From positions 1-27,415 of the IMG/VR virus record IMGVR_UViG_3300006108_000049: a DNA stretch of 27,415 nucleotides; one strand, written 5' to 3'. Positions 4,592 to 26,985 of the stretch are shown here, piece by piece. The notes beneath the pieces are model-generated. The model was not told where the DNA came from. It made no database searches and saw nothing but the letters and a program-made list of their open reading frames with translations. This DNA comes from a virus. The first letter of the stretch is position 1; each line of letters starts with the position of its first letter. Both the position numbers and the translations under genes were made by a program.

Positions 4592-4895
4592 TTATAAATT
4601 TAGAGATGATTTGTTCAACCCAAAAGAAGATGGTTCAACAGTTCCTATTGAATTAATGGTTGACCCGTTCGCGGGAGTGTGCTATCGTTATACCTATGTC
4701 AAGTTTAGAATGGACGAGGATAATGTTCCTCGGATTGGTTATGACTATGAAATCCTCAAGACCAATGACTTGTCTATGATGACACTAAGAAAGAATGAAA
4801 AGTTTAACACGGCATTAGGGCTTATTTTAAACTCCTTATTGCTAGATGCGTCAGAAGTGGAAGGTGCTAGTGAGATGAAAGAAGAGGAATCCTAA
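4563..4895 (+). CDS. hypothetical T4-type phage protein between uvsX and gp41
   Basis: 110 residues, not recognised. It overlaps the oxygenase by 29 bases. ATG 4563 is preferred over the repeat-derived ATG 4575 because GAGGA (4551-4555) lies 7 bases upstream. The protein is acidic, with a beta-rich centre (CYRYTYVKFRMDEDNVPRIGYDYEIL) and an acidic C-terminus (KEEES); there are no membrane segments or metal-binding patterns. Its place between the recombinase and the helicase suggests a replication accessory role, but this is only context. The stop codon TAA is part of the CTAAATA late box that precedes the GIY-YIG gene. Confidence 0.7.
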   Translation: MEAGMEAGIDYKFRDDLFNPKEDGSTVPIELMVDPFAGVCYRYTYVKFRMDEDNVPRIGYDYEILKTNDLSMMTLRKNEKFNTALGLILNSLLLDASEVEGASEMKEEES

Positions 4896-4898
4896 ATA
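4892..4898 (+). promoter_or_regulatory. late-promoter box CTAAATA upstream of GIY-YIG gene
   Basis: CTAAATA overlaps the stop of the preceding gene. T4-type late promoters consist of a TATAAATA-like -10 box only; CTAAATA/NATAAATA versions are known from T4-like cyanophages. The predicted +1 is near 4903-4905, exactly at the base of the first leader helix. Confidence 0.6.
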
Positions 4899-4902
4899 GA
4901 TT

Positions 4903-4958
4903 GTAGGCCACGGTGCTACCAACACCTGCCTACTCTAATACTGTTTGGGAGTATCAGC
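4903..4958 (+). promoter_or_regulatory. structured 5' leader, copy A (shared by three homing-type genes)
   Basis: Helix P1 is GTAGG (4903-4907) with CCTAC (4929-4933). Inside it P2 is GGTG (4912-4915) with CACC (4923-4926). After a conserved TCTA linker, P3 is ATACT (4938-4942) with AGTAT (4950-4954), with a 7-base loop. The Shine-Dalgarno GGGAG straddles the P3 loop and 3' arm, 7 bases before ATG 4959. The same architecture precedes 20619 and 11976, with compensatory changes in P1 and P3. I do not recognise it as a named RNA family. Confidence 0.72.
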
Positions 4959-5513
4959 ATGTCTATTTATCCTACCGGTTATTATGTTTATGCGTATCTA
5001 AGAAAATCCGATAATACACCATATTATATTGGTAAAGGAAAACTACACCGTGCTTGGCGTAGAACATATCATAATGTTTCGGTTCCAAAAGATAGAACTA
5101 AAATAGTGATTATGGAATCAAATCTCACAGAGATTGGTGCCTTAGCATTAGAGAGGTTCTATATTCGTTGGTATGGAAGACAAGATTTAGGAACTGGTAT
5201 TCTAAAAAATCTAACAGACGGTGGTGAAGGAACCTCAGGATATAAACCATCTGAAGAAACATTAAAGAAAAGAGGCGAAGCAATATCCAAGGGTAAAAAA
5301 GGTAAACCTGCGTGGAATAAAGGTATGATTATGTCTTATAAGGGTAAAAAGACCGGCCCAAACCCTAAACTAAGTTTATTGAAAAAAGGTGTTGCCTTAG
5401 GCCCTCAAAAGGTTGTAAAATGTCCTCATTGTGGCCTTAGTGGAGGAATCGCTAATATGAAAAGATTCCATTTTGATAACTGTAAATCTAAGGTGAAAGA
5501 TGAAAAGTATTGA
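4959..5513 (+). CDS. GIY-YIG homing endonuclease with C-terminal zinc finger
   Basis: 184 residues. The nuclease core is YYVYAYL (residues 8-14), YYIGKG (23-28), the RAWRR arginine helix, and the catalytic-Glu helix [11 protein letters not shown] followed by [17 protein letters not shown]3-like linker ([20 protein letters not shown]) follows. The protein closes with a zinc finger CPHCG...MKRFHF..C (about 154-175), a frequent DNA-binding tail of phage homing nucleases. Expression is expected late, from the CTAAATA box and structured leader. The 3' end overlaps gp41 by 14 bases and contains the helicase Shine-Dalgarno (AAGGTG), so the insertion is fused into the helicase start. It is a close relative of the protein at 20619 through the nuclease domain, but the two C-termini are unrelated. 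Confidence 0.9.
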
Positions 5514-6879
5514 AAAGATTATTATAAAAAACCTGATTACCGATTCTAACTTCCTTAGAAAAGTTTTACCTTTCATAAAGTCTGAATACTTCAAGTCAAA
5601 TGAAGACAGATTACTTTTTGATGAGGTTAAAAACTTTGTGGATAAGTATAATCATTCACCAACATATGAATCCCTATCTATTGAGATTGATAATGTTAGA
5701 GGTTCAACTGATGATACTATTAAACATATTCAGAATACAATAAACGAGTTTAAGGAAGACAAATCAGAAACTAACTTTCAGTGGCTGGTGGATTCCACAG
5801 AAGACTTCTGCCAAACGGCCGCTATATACAATGCCATAACATCATCACTAGAAATAATGAACGGCAAACATAAACTAGAGAAGGGTGCTATACCCGGTCT
5901 TTTATCCGATGCTCTATCCATTTCTTTTGACCCGAATGTTGGCCACGATTATTTGGAACAGTTTGAGGATCGCTATGAGTATTATCACCGTGTTCAAGAA
6001 AAGTTGGCATTTGACCTCGACTTCTTTAACAAGATCACTAAAAACGGGGTACCTAGAAAAACTCTTAATGTGGTTATGGCCGGTGTGGGCGTTGGCAAGT
6101 CTTTGTTCCTTTGCCATCTTACTAGCAGCTACCTTAATCAAGGAAAAAATGTTCTCTATATTACCTTGGAGTTAGCAGAAGAGGAAGTATCAAAGAGAAT
6201 AGATGCCAATCTTCTGAACATCACCTTTGATGACCTGATGGTTCTACCAAGAGATATCTACAAATCACGACTTGATAAACTGAAAGCAAAGACAAACGGC
6301 AAGCTTATTGTAAAAGAGTATCCAACTTCCTCGGCATCTGCCACACATTTCAGGTCTTTGCTAAATGAACTACACCTGAAAAAGAACTTTGTTCCAGATG
6401 CCATTATGATTGACTATCTTAACATCTGTTCAAGTTCCCGTATCAAACCAGGTGTGGCAAATAGTTATACATATATCAAGGCCATTGCCGAAGAACTAAG
6501 AGGTCTGGCAGTTGAGTTTAATGTTCCTGTTTGGTCTGCTACACAGCTTACCAGAGGTGGTTATAACAGTTCTGATCCAGATATGACCGATACTTCCGAG
6601 TCCTTTGGTTTGCCTGCTACTGCCGATTTGTTCTTGGCACTCATTACAAACGAAACTATGGAACAGTTGAAACAGGTTCAGGTAAAACAGTTGAAGAACC
6701 GTTATAATGATCCATCACAGAATAAAAGATTTGTGATTGGTATTGACAAAAGCAAGATGAAGTTGTATGATGTAGAACAATCGGCCCAAGACATTGTGGA
6801 CTCAGGACAGGAAGAAGTGAAACCTATTCCTAGACAGTTTGATGGTGGTAAGAACAAGTTCAAAGGATTGAAAGTATGA
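5500..6879 (+). CDS. 41: replicative DnaB-like DNA helicase (gp41)
   Basis: 459-residue hexameric replicative helicase that unwinds the fork ahead of gp43 and recruits primase in T4-type phages. The N-terminal about 150 residues form the helical DnaB-N-like domain. The RecA-like motor has Walker A AGVGVGKS (194-201), the [12 protein letters not shown] segment (224-234) and Walker B AIMIDYLN (301-308, D305), then SATQLTRGG and a [13 protein letters not shown] stretch of the motor core. Length fits T4 gp41 (475). The start at 5500 is set by AAGGTG (5490-5495), which lies inside the upstream endonuclease gene. It ends overlapping the next gene by ATGA. Confidence 0.94.
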
Positions 6880-11836: not shown

Positions 11837-11840
11837 GTGC

Positions 11841-11847
11841 CTAAATA
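11841..11847 (+). promoter_or_regulatory. late-promoter box CTAAATA upstream of leader copy C
   Basis: CTAAATAGAT is identical here and in leader copy A, and lies 4 bases after the upstream stop codon. The predicted start is at the foot of the hairpin ATTCC/GGAAT (11851-11869). Confidence 0.6.
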
Positions 11848-11975
11848 GATATTCCATATTCTTCGGAATGTGGTAGCCACCTGACCACGAAGGTACTGGC
11901 CGGTGGCACTTAACTATTACTGTAGGTCGCGGATGGCCGTCCCACCTACTCTAATGCTTTTCTGGAGCACCAGCA
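11848..11975 (+). promoter_or_regulatory. structured 5' leader, copy C, with extra 5' hairpins
   Basis: This 128-base gene-free stretch is a chain of hairpins. The common core is P1 GTAGG (11922-11926) with CCTAC (11945-11949), a short inner helix GGA (11931-11933) with TCC (11940-11942), and P3 TGCT (11955-11958) with AGCA (11966-11969), with GGAG at the loop edge and ATG 11976 after CAGCA. Compared with copies A and B it has about 70 additional bases holding ATTCC/GGAAT (11851-11869) and GCCACC (11876-11881) with GGTGGC (11902-11907). P3 shows a compensatory A-T to G-C change relative to copy A. Confidence 0.65.
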
Positions 11976-12500
11976 ATGGATATTTATAAGTCTTTATCAG
12001 ACACCTTAGGTGTAGAATATATACCTTCTTCCGATTCATCTCCCCAAAACAACTTTATTCCTTTATTTTCTAATAGGAGCGGATTTGAGGGAAAAAATCA
12101 TACGGATGAAACTAAGTTATTGCTATCTAAACCAAAGTCGGAGGAGACAAAACAAAAGATTAGTGCTACTATGAAGTCACTAGGATATATACCGCCTTCT
12201 CAAAAAGGTGTAAAAAGAACAGAAGAAACAAAAGCAAAGATAAGTATTTCTATAAGAAAATCTATATCAAAAGGAAAAAATAAAAATATTATTAGAAATA
12301 AGGATCCTAAAACAGATACACACAAACAAAAGATTAGTATATCGGTAAGCGCACGATTGAGTTGTCCGGAAATAAAAGAAAAGATGTGTAAACCAAGAAA
12401 AGAAATGTGTTGTCCTGTTTGTGGATTAGTTGGTCGTGGTGGTATTATGAAGAGATACCATTTCACCAACTGTAAAAGCATCCCCAAATCAATGGGGTGA
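11976..12500 (+). CDS. homing-endonuclease relative lacking the nuclease domain (NUMOD3 plus zinc finger)
   Basis: 174 residues. It begins MDIY, like MSIY of the 4959 and 20619 proteins, right after the same leader, but no GIY-YIG core follows. Instead there are NUMOD3-type repeats (KNHTDETKLLLSKPKSEETKQKIS, then GVKRTEETKAKIS and TDTHKQKIS) and a C-terminal zinc finger CCPVCG...MKRYHFTNC, like that of the 4959 protein. It could therefore bind DNA but not cut it. The frame is intact, so it may be a retained DNA-binding protein rather than a decaying pseudogene; it could also be a recent internal deletion. The first 35 residues after MDIY are not recognised. It is AT-rich and Lys-rich. Confidence 0.7.
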   Translation: MDIYKSLSDTLGVEYIPSSDSSPQNNFIPLFSNRSGFEGKNHTDETKLLLSKPKSEETKQKISATMKSLGYIPPSQKGVKRTEETKAKISISIRKSISKGKNKNIIRNKDPKTDTHKQKISISVSARLSCPEIKEKMCKPRKEMCCPVCGLVGRGGIMKRYHFTNCKSIPKSMG

Positions 12501-19316: not shown

Positions 19317-20560
19317 TGCTTAAACTATCACAGTTCATCACCGAGTCCGCTGCCGAGAAAGACCGTCACCTCACACATATTGAGGATGCCGTGTTGGAAG
19401 GTGGTGTTGCTGGTACAAGAAATGCTATACAGTTTTTAATCTCTCTAAGAGATATGTTTGCCGATGATGGCAAAACTCTGAATGAGGCCCGTGGTGGTCT
19501 TATTCTTCGAACTAAGTTCGATGGCGCGCCCGCACTCTATGCCGGTATCAACCCTGATAACGGTAAGTTCTTTGTCGGTTCTAAAAGTATCTTTAACAAA
19601 GGTGCCAAACTAAACTATACCCAAGCGGATATTCGGAGTAACCATTCGGGTGGTTTGGCTGATAAACTATCTTTGGCATTAAAGTATCTTCCAGAACTCG
19701 GCATTACAGGTATCATACATGGTGATTTTATGTTTTCGCATGATGAACTGAAATCGGAGACCATTGATGGTAAGAAGTATATTACATTTAGGCCTAATAC
19801 GATTACATATGCTGTACCAGAAGGTACTACACTTGCCAGACAAGTTATGACAGCTAAGATGGGAATTGTTTTCCATACTTCTTACATCGGTAATAGTATG
19901 GCCAATCTTCAAACTCACTTCGATGTTGATATTGGGCGGTTACATTCATCACGCAATGTCTGGTATAGGACAAATCGTTTCATGGATGTCACAGGTAAGG
20001 CCACACTAACCAAGGCAGAGAATGAAAGATTGTCTGGTATTCTATCACAGGCAGGCAATCTATTCAGACAAATACCTGCGGCACTACTAAACGAGATTGC
20101 CTCTAACGACACATATCGTATTCCTATTATGACTTATTACAACCAGAAGGTCCGCGCAGGCGAACACATGGGTGCTAATCATGTGAATGAGATTATCAAA
20201 TTCGTTTCCGACAAGTATGATAAACAGATTGCCGATGCCAAGATGCCTGCTACAAAACAAAAAAGAACTATGGAAAAGAATAAGGTTGTTGGTTGGTATC
20301 GTAGAAATGCTGTCGGACTCAAAAACATATTCCAACTACAGAACCTCTTTATTGATGCCAAGACAATGCTCATTCGCAAATTTGATGAGGTAAACGATAT
20401 TGGAACTTTTCTACATACTCCGGATGGTGGATATAAAGTTACTACACCAGAAGGATATGTTGGTTGTCTTTCAGTTGATGGCCAAGCGTGGAAATTGGTA
20501 GACAGGATGAACTTCTCAAGGTCCAATTTCCTTGCGCAAAAATCATGGAAGCCTAAATAG
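19316..20560 (+). CDS. DUF6267-like protein with ligase-type nucleotidyltransferase motifs and capsid-targeting-like N-terminus
   Basis: 414 residues. Residues 1-10, [10 protein letters not shown], match in length and pattern the T4 capsid-targeting sequence (MKTYQEFIAE, cut by prohead protease gp21 after Glu10). The body shows the layout of covalent nucleotidyltransferases: motif I-like K67-F-D-G70 ([14 protein letters not shown]), VGSKSIF (87-93), a motif III-like GIIHGDFMF (132-140), and near the C-terminus [19 protein letters not shown], which resembles motifs IV-V of RNA/DNA ligases. I recall this type as DUF6267 of T4-like phages; the ligase reading is my inference. The last codons contain the CTAAATA box for the GIY-YIG gene. 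Confidence 0.72.
20553..20559 (+). promoter_or_regulatory. late-promoter box CTAAATA upstream of leader copy B
   Basis: CTAAATAG overlaps the TAG stop of the ligase-like gene; the predicted +1 is at the base of P1 (20564), as in copy A. Confidence 0.6.
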
Positions 20561-20563
20561 GAT

Positions 20564-20618
20564 GTCCGTCACGGTGCGACAACACCCACGGACTCTAATA
20601 CTGTTTAGGAGTATCAGC
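20564..20618 (+). promoter_or_regulatory. structured 5' leader, copy B
   Basis: P1 is GTCCG (20564-20568) with CGGAC (20589-20593); relative to copy A two base pairs have changed on both sides (A-T to C-G and G-C to C-G). P2 is GGTG (20573-20576) with CACC (20583-20586). P3 is ATACT (20598-20602) with AGTAT (20610-20614), identical to copy A; the loop ends in the AGG of the Shine-Dalgarno AGGAG. Downstream of P1 the leader and first four codons match copy A at all but one position. Confidence 0.72.
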
Positions 20619-21248
20619 ATGTCTATTTATTCCACCACAAATCCGCCACCACATTTCTACATTTACGCCTATCTAAGATCGGATGGAACTCCTTATTACA
20701 TAGGAAAAGGAACTAATTGTCGGGCCTGGAGAAGGAATAAAAAAGACTTGATAAAAAGACCCACCTGTGATAGAATAGTTATTATGGAATCAGGATTAAC
20801 GGAATTAGGATCTCTCGCTTTAGAACGACGATATATTAGATGGTATGGAAGAAAAGATAATGGAACAGGTATTCTAAGGAATAAAACTGATGGTGGTGAA
20901 GGAATGATTGGTCCATCGGATGAGTTTAGAAAAAAAAGGAAAGAATTATGTGAAAAATCCATATGGATCAATAACGGAAAGAATGAAAAGTTTATAGTAA
21001 ATGGAAATATTCCTAAAGGTTGGAACAAAGGTAGATTACCTGAAAAAATAGGTGAATGGTTGAAGAAAAGAAGAAATTATAATGGTTCTAATAACCCAGT
21101 ATTTGGTATGAAAAGACCTGATTTAGTAGAAAGAAACAAAGTTCCGCAATATTGGATAAATAATGGGATAGATTGTAAAAAGATCCTTGTTTCGGATTTT
21201 GGTAAATACCAAGAACTGGGATTTGTTAGAGGGAGATTACCTTATTGA
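20619..21248 (+). CDS. GIY-YIG homing endonuclease with WINNG/GW-GR repeats
   Basis: 209 residues from ATG 20619; the frame is open upstream, but the leader homology and AGGAG 7 bases before this ATG fix the start. The nuclease domain ([39 protein letters not shown]) is closely related to that of the 4959 protein. The C-terminal half is different: two units of WINNG...F/I...GW/GF..GRLP (about 113-135 and 183-209) around a NUMOD3-like NPVFGMKRP, a DNA-binding module found in phage homing nucleases, and no zinc finger. It sits between the ligase-like and HAD genes, both intact, so it is free-standing. Confidence 0.88.
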
Positions 21249-25221: not shown

Positions 25222-26985
25222 ATGGTATTCTCTAACAAATTTAACTCAAAGAAAGCAGACCCTTTGGTGGAAGCCGCCAAAGCCGCTATGGAACTAGGCC
25301 AGAAGCGCCGTGATGCTATCAACGCCGTCAACGAAGAGTTCGGTGTTTATTCACGCAACGCAGTCGTTCGTGAACAACTTGCGGCATATGATGCTCGTAT
25401 TGAGGAAGTCTATAAGGGCATGATGGCAGGCAATCTTACAGAAGGCAAAAAACTTGCTGACAAAGACTATGACAAAGACGGCAAGATTGAATCTCCAAAA
25501 GACGAAGTATGGGGTTCACGCTTCCGTGCTGCTAAGGCTGCTGGCAAGATGGAAGAAGGATCACAATGGCGTAAACCAGGCCGTGAAGGTAAAACTTGGG
25601 GTACCGACTCATCAGAAGATCGTGAAGACGGACATGAAACTAAGTTTCAACTAAACAAAAAAGGTAAGATCAGTGATGGTCCGAATAAAGATGTGTTGGC
25701 TCACAGAAAAGATCCAGATAAATGGTACAGTAAAGCACAGCAGAAAAAGCACGGTGTTGATCTAAAAAGTCAGATCAAAAACCAAATCGGTAAGCATACA
25801 AAGCCACATCTACCAGAAGAGATCGATTACTCTGCTCCAGATCGTGCTGCCGTTACAAAAGATAATAAACCATCTGTTTCACCTACAGCACCAAAAGCAG
25901 ACACATCAGGACCATCTGCCGCAGATAAGGCAGGCCTTGCTGCTAAGATTGGTGCTATGAAAGAAGCAAAGTTGGATGAAGTTTCTCATAAACTCGCACT
26001 AAAGGCTATGAAGAAATCTGAAAAACGTGGTGATGATGAATATGATGATGATATGACATCCGATAGACTGAGTGATCCAAGGACACATTGGGATCGTGCT
26101 AAACGTCTTCGCGGTCATATGAAAAAAAAGTTCGGTAATCCATCACACAAAACAAGCGGCCGTGATCTTCTATCACCTAAACCAGCCGATCAAGATGGAA
26201 TGGAAAGACATAAGGCTGACAAATTAGTAAAAGGTCCAAGAGCAGGTAAAATCTCTGCTAAACACAGAGAAAATCTAAAAGGTAATATTAAATACTCTCT
26301 TGGTAAACATACAAAGCCACATCTACCAGAAGAAACAATTGAAGAAGCAGTTTCACGCAAGCATTTTCAACAAGTCGCAGACCTAATCAAAGGTCATGAG
26401 TCCCAAGAAAAGAGAAATGAACTTGCTTCACACCATGCTGGCATTTTCTCAAAGCAGAATCCTCGTTTTGACCATGGCCGTTTCCATAAGGCTGCTGGTT
26501 CAACCGCACACGAAGCACCTAAGAAAATGGAAGAGGCAGCATATTCAGCAAAGGCTGGCCGTGCTGGTAAAGACCTCGGCAAACCAGGTAAATCATTCAA
26601 AATGATTGCTAAGAAGGCTGGTAAAGAATATGGTTCAGAAGAAAAAGGTAAGAAGGTAGCAGGTGCTATCCTTAAAAAGATCCGTGCAAAGCATATGAAA
26701 GAAGATGATATGAAATTGGGTGATCCTGCTGCTATGGATGCAGTAAAGAAAGCTGGTAATCCACCTCTTGCATCAACCGCAGATCCTAAAGGTTTAGGTG
26801 TTGCTCAAAGTGCAGTAAGTCAGGGTAAAATGGATAATATTGCTAATGACACAATTGAAAAACAACATGGTCCAGATGTAGCACAAGCATACAAAAATAT
26901 GCAATCACAAAGATACAACTGGTCAATGAAAGAAGATATTAATGAGTCCGTCCAAGTTGGCGCAAACAAATATAGGATCGTCTAA
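25222..26985 (+). CDS. large Lys-rich structural or prohead-core-like protein
   Basis: 587 residues, Lys/Asp/Ala-rich and largely disordered or helical, as prohead scaffold and internal proteins are. The N-terminal part (LVEAAKAAMELGQKRRDAINAVNEEF, then SRNAVVREQLAAYDARIEEVY) is a helical domain of a type I associate with T4-like cyanophage virion proteins. An EF-hand-like D82-x-D84-x-D86-G stretch leads into IESPKDEVWGSR. Sites fitting the T4 prohead protease consensus (L/I-x-E before A or G) include LVE17-A and LTE74-G, plus IEE-A near 375. KHTKPHLPEE is repeated at 191-200 and 362-371. It joins the next gene by TAATG. Exact role unknown. Confidence 0.68.
   Translation: MVFSNKFNSKKADPLVEAAKAAMELGQKRRDAINAVNEEFGVYSRNAVVREQLAAYDARIEEVYKGMMAGNLTEGKKLADKDYDKDGKIESPKDEVWGSRFRAAKAAGKMEEGSQWRKPGREGKTWGTDSSEDREDGHETKFQLNKKGKISDGPNKDVLAHRKDPDKWYSKAQQKKHGVDLKSQIKNQIGKHTKPHLPEEIDYSAPDRAAVTKDNKPSVSPTAPKADTSGPSAADKAGLAAKIGAMKEAKLDEVSHKLALKAMKKSEKRGDDEYDDDMTSDRLSDPRTHWDRAKRLRGHMKKKFGNPSHKTSGRDLLSPKPADQDGMERHKADKLVKGPRAGKISAKHRENLKGNIKYSLGKHTKPHLPEETIEEAVSRKHFQQVADLIKGHESQEKRNELASHHAGIFSKQNPRFDHGRFHKAAGSTAHEAPKKMEEAAYSAKAGRAGKDLGKPGKSFKMIAKKAGKEYGSEEKGKKVAGAILKKIRAKHMKEDDMKLGDPAAMDAVKKAGNPPLASTADPKGLGVAQSAVSQGKMDNIANDTIEKQHGPDVAQAYKNMQSQRYNWSMKEDINESVQVGANKYRIV
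25789..25822 (+). repeat. direct repeat copy 1 in prohead-core-like gene
   Basis: 34 bases encoding GKHTKPHLPEE; 32 match the copy at 26302-26335. It marks an internal duplication in the protein. Confidence 0.8.
26302..26335 (+). repeat. direct repeat copy 2 in prohead-core-like gene
   Basis: Second copy, 513 bases downstream, two base differences (both G to A) from copy 1. The flanking protein sequence (KxQ/N-IK-x-x-x-GKH) is also similar, so the duplicated unit is longer than the nucleotide match. Confidence 0.8.

Follow-up and report, generated by a model that had tools for sequence, protein, structure and literature searches.

Why should three homing-endonuclease-type genes that lie far apart in one phage genome each be preceded by the same short leader, with the Shine-Dalgarno sequence held in a hairpin? 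The window, by which we mean the whole stretch of DNA analysed, is an uncultured virus record of 27,415 bases that comes from a T4-like phage. The UvsX of this phage shows 58.7% identity to that of cyanophage P-TIM40, and close IMG/VR relatives exist for its gp41 and other core genes. A sequence-only reading of the window had described the leader before the genes at 4959, 20619 and 11976 (copies A, B and C, respectively) as a helix P1 enclosing P2, a linker and a hairpin P3. It had proposed that the RNA structure is under selection, and that it may time the translation of a DNA-cutting enzyme or be part of a mobile unit.

Three leader copies and their shared anatomy

The three copies are present where that reading had placed them, and a covariance model (R1), built from 92 aligned non-redundant environmental copies, returned exactly these three in the window with E values of 3e-19 to 6e-17. 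The matches are located at 4891-4973 for copy A (81.1 bits, E = 2.8e-19), 20552-20633 for copy B (80.8 bits) and 11909-11990 for copy C (72.7 bits). The pattern of linker and P3 occurs three times in the window and in none of 100 shuffles. Both helices pair as claimed: P1 is GTAGG/CCTAC in copies A and C and GTCCG/CGGAC in copy B, while P3 is ATACT/AGTAT in copies A and B and TGCT/AGCA in copy C. The features of the window are as follows.

4876-5524 (+): inserted unit A, approximate limits; missing from close relatives (empty sites in L283, L287 and L288), where orf4563 and gp41 overlap directly
4892-4899 (+): copy A, late-promoter-like CTAAATAG; the TAA within it terminates the upstream gene
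4903-4933 (+): copy A, P1 (4903-4908 / 4928-4933) around the C-R-C internal loop and P2 (4912-4915 / 4923-4926), from the fold and family covariation
4933-4958 (+): copy A, linker CTCTAA, P3 (ATACT 4938-4942 / AGTAT 4950-4954), GGAG 4948-4951 and CAGC 4955-4958, from the model match, the fold and P3 covariation
4959-5513 (+): copy A, GIY-YIG-like homing endonuclease gene, 184 aa (PHROG homing-endonuclease families); TATTTAT at 4964-4970 is part of the shared unit
20552-20560 (+): copy B, CCTAAATAG, containing the stop codon TAG of the upstream gene
20564-20593 (+): copy B, P1 (20564-20569 / 20588-20593) around P2 (20573-20576 / 20583-20586), from the model match and the fold
20593-20618 (+): copy B, linker, P3 (20598-20602 / 20610-20614), GGAG 20608-20611 and CAGC 20615-20618, from the model match and the fold
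20619-21248 (+): copy B, GIY-YIG-like homing endonuclease gene, 209 aa (PHROG homing-endonuclease families); TATTTAT at 20624-20630
11840-11848 (+): copy C, CCTAAATAG, ~74 nt 5' of P1
~11849-11908 (+): copy C, extra stem-loop segment between CCTAAATAG and P1, from the fold
11922-11949 (+): copy C, P1 (11922-11927 / 11944-11949) around P2, from the model match and the fold
11949-11974 (+): copy C, linker, P3 (TGCT 11955-11958 / AGCA 11966-11969), GGAG 11964-11967 and CAGC 11971-11974, from the model match
11976-12500 (+): copy C, NUMOD3/zinc-finger nuclease-type gene, 174 aa, without a recognisable catalytic domain; TATTTAT at 11981-11987

The description of one identical unit before all three genes holds in part, as CTAAATAG lies directly 5' of P1 in copies A and B and not in copy C. 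There, CCTAAATAG is found ~74 nt 5' of P1 with an unrelated stem-loop segment in between, and the normal promoter position reads TTAACTAT. A hairpin is likewise inserted between promoter and P1 at locus L092. The nuclease genes of copies A and C have a C-terminal zinc-finger-like motif in common (CPxCG...MKRxHFxNC) and differ in their N-terminal parts, so both ends of the cassette look modular. The window also contains a fourth GIY-YIG/NUMOD3 nuclease gene (1228-1896, +), directly 3' of a gene 43-like ORF, for which the R1 search found no leader, and a 587-aa ORF (25222-26985) with an internal repeat (...KHTKPHLPEE) at 25747-25820 and 26260-26333.

From 5' to 3', the consensus unit consists of NTAAATA, 3-5 nt, P1 beginning with a purine, an internal loop with invariant C-R-C, P2 and the second strand of P1. 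These are followed by the linker YCUAAY, P3 with the Shine-Dalgarno sequence across its loop and 3' strand, CAGC, 0-3 nt, AUG, about 2 nt and UAUUUA. The unpaired C21, C23, CU(A) and CAG are conserved in 59-60 of 60 copies collected genome-wide. In copies A and B, the predicted fold alone pairs the CU of the linker with the AG of CAGC, bases that do not vary. UAUUUA is conserved in 213 of 237 copies; because it occupies three reading frames relative to the AUG (82, 14 and 7 copies), it is conserved as nucleotides and not as Ile-Tyr. In three variant leaders with an enlarged P3, the AUG lies within the P3 stem (UCAU/AUGA) and CAGC forms codons 2-3. The start codon shifts in these variants, and the RNA elements stay in the same order. 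These leaders precede three different GIY-YIG-like genes.

L143, 8307-9122: variant leader and GIY-YIG-like gene
L158, 2403-3116 (-): variant leader and GIY-YIG-like gene
L196, 10932-11633: variant leader and GIY-YIG-like gene

An additional helix, P0 (ATAAATA/TATTTAT), was considered and is unproven: its outer pair shows no covariation (Fisher p = 0.17), and the TACTTA/TATATA variants are uncompensated.

Covariation and distribution of the family

The folding energies of the single copies are unremarkable (z-scores of -1.0 to -2.0, those of copies A and C not being significant), and the claim of structure therefore rests on covariation. P1, P2 and P3 were recovered by RNAalifold without any prior structure. 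In the 92 copies, standard pairs occupy 97.4% of the cells, compared with 75.8% for shuffled and at most 52% for slid partners, and the covariation score is 0.570, compared with 0.164 ± 0.008 and at most 0.092, respectively. The 60 genome-wide copies, which were found with R1 and taken to reduce search-pattern bias, hold all 15 model pairs and show both-side changes in 14 of them, P3 included. Since the alignment of these copies was fitted to the model, P1 was additionally tested from sequence anchors alone. All four inner P1 pairs form in 227 of 259 copies, where 1000 shuffles gave 63 on average and never more than 80, and the 259 copies contain 34 distinct fully complementary P1 combinations. 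GGAG is absent from 13 of the 60 copies, in which P3 is still paired (e.g., ATGTC/GACAT and TGATT/AATCA); some P3 changes give up the canonical GGAG while pairing persists. Compensatory changes in P1, P2 and P3 thus extend far beyond the three copies of the window, and the proposal that the RNA structure is under selection is upheld. The sequence-only reading would have been abandoned had a covariance-model search found no further covarying copies; that search was run, and it found them in large number.

Three scans of IMG/VR with partly complementary patterns each gave at least ~120 stretches, and the three batches of fetched loci contained at least 108, 109 and 89 R1 matches (some from redundant contigs). 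As a lower bound that includes some redundant contigs, the fetched loci hold more than 300 R1 places. Twenty whole records carry 116 copies dispersed on both strands, with up to 16 in one 360 kb phage, and an 88.9 kb contig near-identical to the window (G026) has six. Leaders of several dialects had no credible BLAST hit among the 50,697 records of isolate phages. Among 10 isolates chosen for an R1 search, one, Pseudoalteromonas phage vB_Psh_XG4, carries a divergent but significant member at 56131-56220 (E = 2.3e-6) 5' of a GIY-YIG gene, with P1 as GCTAA/TTAGC and the same TCGCGG core; R1 found no member in T4, Aeh1, HTVC008M or S-SRM01. A strict-pattern scan of 84,980 prokaryote genomes yielded one genuine copy (L512), in a metagenome-assembled bin. 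Two other candidates were dismissed as chance matches: L513 from the prokaryote scan, which lies inside a bacterial gene, and a blastn match in Marine virus AG-345-E15, whose locus (L279) has no R1 match. The isolate and prokaryote scans indicate that the leader is essentially a phage element, mainly of uncultured phages. It constitutes a large structured-RNA family that seems to be undescribed and that is common in uncultured T4-like and jumbo phages but nearly missing from isolates.

That the leader belongs to no named RNA family, as the sequence-only reading had supposed, is borne out by Rfam 15, which gave no match in the window at the gathering threshold and, up to an E value of 1, nothing at the leader of 20 additional loci. 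A group I intron or other self-splicing element was rejected, as there is no Rfam intron match and the insertion lies between genes, not within one. HEARO, the omega RNA of IscB/IsrB, is a structured RNA next to a mobile HNH nuclease gene. The leader differs from it in having no Rfam match and in being the mRNA leader of several nuclease families (GIY-YIG, HNH or NUMOD3), and Rfam and protein profile searches detected neither a HEARO covariance-model match nor an IscB/IsrB-type nuclease. In the openly licensed literature, we found no report of a shared RNA family 5' of such genes.

Mobility and the downstream nuclease genes

Two sites support the suggestion that the leader is part of a mobile unit, since close relatives have neither the leader nor the nuclease gene there. 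At site A, relatives with flanking proteins of 88-91% identity have orf4563 and gp41 overlapping directly; the window has both leader and nuclease gene, and the insert begins within ~20 nt of the promoter. At site B (after the DUF6267 gene), four different leader-nuclease units are found among relatives and other relatives are empty. The leader and the nuclease gene are gained together. Other inserted sequence without the leader occupies the same hotspot in the site B relatives L367 and L369.

The window-type unit and that of L363 at site B have identical leaders and different nuclease genes. Such pairs, the several units in one hotspot and the many copies per genome would be expected if the element were kept mainly as a DNA-level seam for recombination or homing, with the RNA structure secondary. 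We regard this as very unlikely, because the compensatory changes, present at every helix, disrupt identity at the DNA level and preserve pairing, whereas selection for recombination homology would act the other way.

Almost all copies lie 5' of a homing-endonuclease-type gene, and these genes are of unrelated kinds (GIY-YIG, HNH and NUMOD3-only). Their classes were taken from profile searches; a motif-based protein classifier left many ORFs unclassified. Among 149 non-redundant downstream ORFs, 99 match phrog_314 and 61 match phrog_655, both homing endonuclease families, and the Pfam matches include HNH, SegE-type GIY-YIG, I-TevI DNA-binding and NUMOD3. Endonuclease-family matches were obtained for 8 of 10 doubtful ORFs from the genome-wide copies. 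In the profile search, no such match was found for the ORF of L496, which reads like a divergent GIY-YIG protein, or for that of L455, which is short and has a degraded promoter. Permuted tmRNAs are located near leader-nuclease units in two jumbo phages (L496, 36-346, +, E = 1.2e-18; L440, 904-1123, -, E = 1.1e-15), and in L496 a skipping-rope RNA match overlaps the tmRNA.

Leader similarity tracks the phage genome and not the nuclease family. Within a genome, leader identity is 0.73 whatever the nuclease; between genomes it is 0.70 whether the nucleases are homologous or not (p = 9e-7 for within versus between genomes and homologous nucleases, with pairs that are not independent). Gene conversion between copies could be a source of the within-genome similarity.

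Late promoter and proposed control of translation

NTAAATA ends 3-5 nt 5' of P1 in 242 of 259 copies, most commonly with a spacing of 5 nt (164 of 259), and fits the cyanophage/T4 late promoter motif. The TATAAATA box of T4 extends from about -13 to -6, which with the 5-nt spacing places the predicted +1 at the first P1 base. This base is a purine in all 60 genome-wide copies, as expected at a start site. A gp55-like late sigma gene was detected in 10 of 12 carrier records (match to T4 gp55, E = 2e-20 to 2e-5), and both marks of a T4-type late transcription unit are therefore found, namely a promoter at a fixed distance from the predicted start and a phage-encoded gp55. Copy C and L455 have no promoter at the usual place. 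T4-like cyanophages have NATAAATA as their late promoter motif, and S-PM2 and T4 share it (PMC2984593).

We consider the leader to be, probably, a mobile, late-expressed cis-regulatory 5' element of a nuclease cassette that controls translation initiation. The cassette would comprise the late promoter, P1 with P2, the CUAAY linker, P3 with the Shine-Dalgarno sequence, CAGC, the start codon, UAUUUA and one of many unrelated nuclease genes. A phage gp55-type RNA polymerase would start at the first P1 base, so that the late mRNA would begin with a closed stem-loop. P3 would restrain the Shine-Dalgarno sequence, and translation would begin only once P3 opens, either by the ribosome alone or by a factor acting on the invariant unpaired bases (C-R-C loop, CUA linker and CAGC). 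The DNA-cutting enzyme would thus appear low and late wherever the cassette inserts. The position of the leader between late promoter and start codon, and the placing of the Shine-Dalgarno sequence in the predicted P3, fit such control of timing. The predicted accessibility of the Shine-Dalgarno sequence and AUG is moderate (~0.4) in late and read-through RNA alike, and P3, with 4-5 pairs, is short and might not suffice alone to block ribosomes.

A shared binding factor is plausible given the unpaired bases that never vary and the dialect particular to each genome, although gene conversion among copies could also give rise to that dialect; such a putative factor, if any, would probably be common to all cassettes of one phage. 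It is conceivable, and we suggest it tentatively, that a phage- or host-encoded RNA-binding factor, or another ligand, recognises all nuclease-cassette leaders of a phage as one regulon, and that the unrelated selfish nucleases came to use the same control RNA, fitted to the phage in question, by convergence or exchange. If so, the leaders would represent a new class of trans-regulated translational operator. In T4, the RegA and gp43 operators are cases in which a protein at the initiation region regulates several phage mRNAs, or one (PMC3014915); the leader differs in that it targets only mobile nucleases and in that its binding factor is putative.

A simpler role, in which the leader mainly stabilises the mRNA and aids initiation without any switch, would agree with the predicted start at the P1 base, as the mRNA would open with a closed stem, and would let the cassette bring its own robust expression signals to new sites. 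It seems improbable to us, since a plain stem could do without the invariant unpaired bases in the P2 internal loop, the linker and CAGC, and without a P3 that is maintained over part of the Shine-Dalgarno sequence.

T4 I-TevI, cited by the sequence-only reading as a precedent for purpose, offers a more specific mechanism, in which an arm from the promoter region, present in read-through transcripts only, closes the start region, and late transcripts lack the arm. Here the arm might be ATAAATA, paired with TATTTAT 3' of the AUG, or CCTAAATAG, paired with the loop of P3 and the Shine-Dalgarno sequence. TATTTAT, the element conserved in three frames, corresponds exactly to the reverse complement of the promoter core. 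CCTAAATAG pairs with the P3 loop in the read-through fold of copies A and B, and in the CTAAATA class, to which the window belongs, natural partners give -3.56 kcal/mol versus -3.14 ± 0.18 kcal/mol for shuffled ones. I-TevI, gene e and mobE are established cases of the mechanism (PMC3014915, PMC2988022). When read-through and late RNAs of 150 copies were folded, however, the mean Shine-Dalgarno/AUG accessibility did not differ between them (0.37/0.42 and 0.40/0.43, respectively), and the promoter/TATTTAT helix had a mean pair probability of only 0.24. In the common ATAAATA class, promoter-loop complementarity is no better than in shuffles, and the promoter does not compensate for the TACTTA and TATATA variants. 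The precedent thus fits in purpose, while its specific mechanism is unsupported in general by folding and shuffles, and we judge it unlikely for this family. Among the hallmarks of I-TevI and mobE control, an RNA structure at the ribosome binding site is found, as P3 pairs part of GGAG and covaries; an inhibitory structure restricted to transcripts from upstream promoters is not found generally, with a weak signal in the CTAAATA class only.

We rate the leader as a new RNA family within a class that is already known, the translational-control leaders of phage homing endonucleases. T4 I-TevI, I-TevII, I-TevIII and segB and Aeh1 mobE are alike in having a homing endonuclease gene, a late promoter and an RNA structure over the ribosome binding site, and in T4 reviews such hairpins are described gene by gene, with no shared family (PMC2988022, PMC3014915). 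The inhibitory arm of I-TevI lies 5' of the late start site, whereas the leader family described here is wholly 3' of the promoter. The T4 and Aeh1 hairpins are individual and without R1 match, in contrast to one covarying family before unrelated nucleases. The leader hairpin of seg43 in Aeromonas phage 25 is a single case, with the Shine-Dalgarno sequence outside the stem and no conserved family reported.

As unrelated homing endonucleases travel with one expression leader, how selfish nucleases limit harm to the phage becomes testable with one element. The motif also offers a way to detect and annotate these genes, of which many have no Pfam match, and is a candidate late-phase translational control part. 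In S-SRM01 (L500) and phage B23 (L502), nuclease-like genes without the family RNA are annotated as 'translation initiation factor 2', an annotation that looks wrong. Just 5' of these genes, long inverted repeats surround a late promoter (e.g., AATCGTGGTT ... AACCACGATT in B23), an arrangement resembling that of I-TevI.
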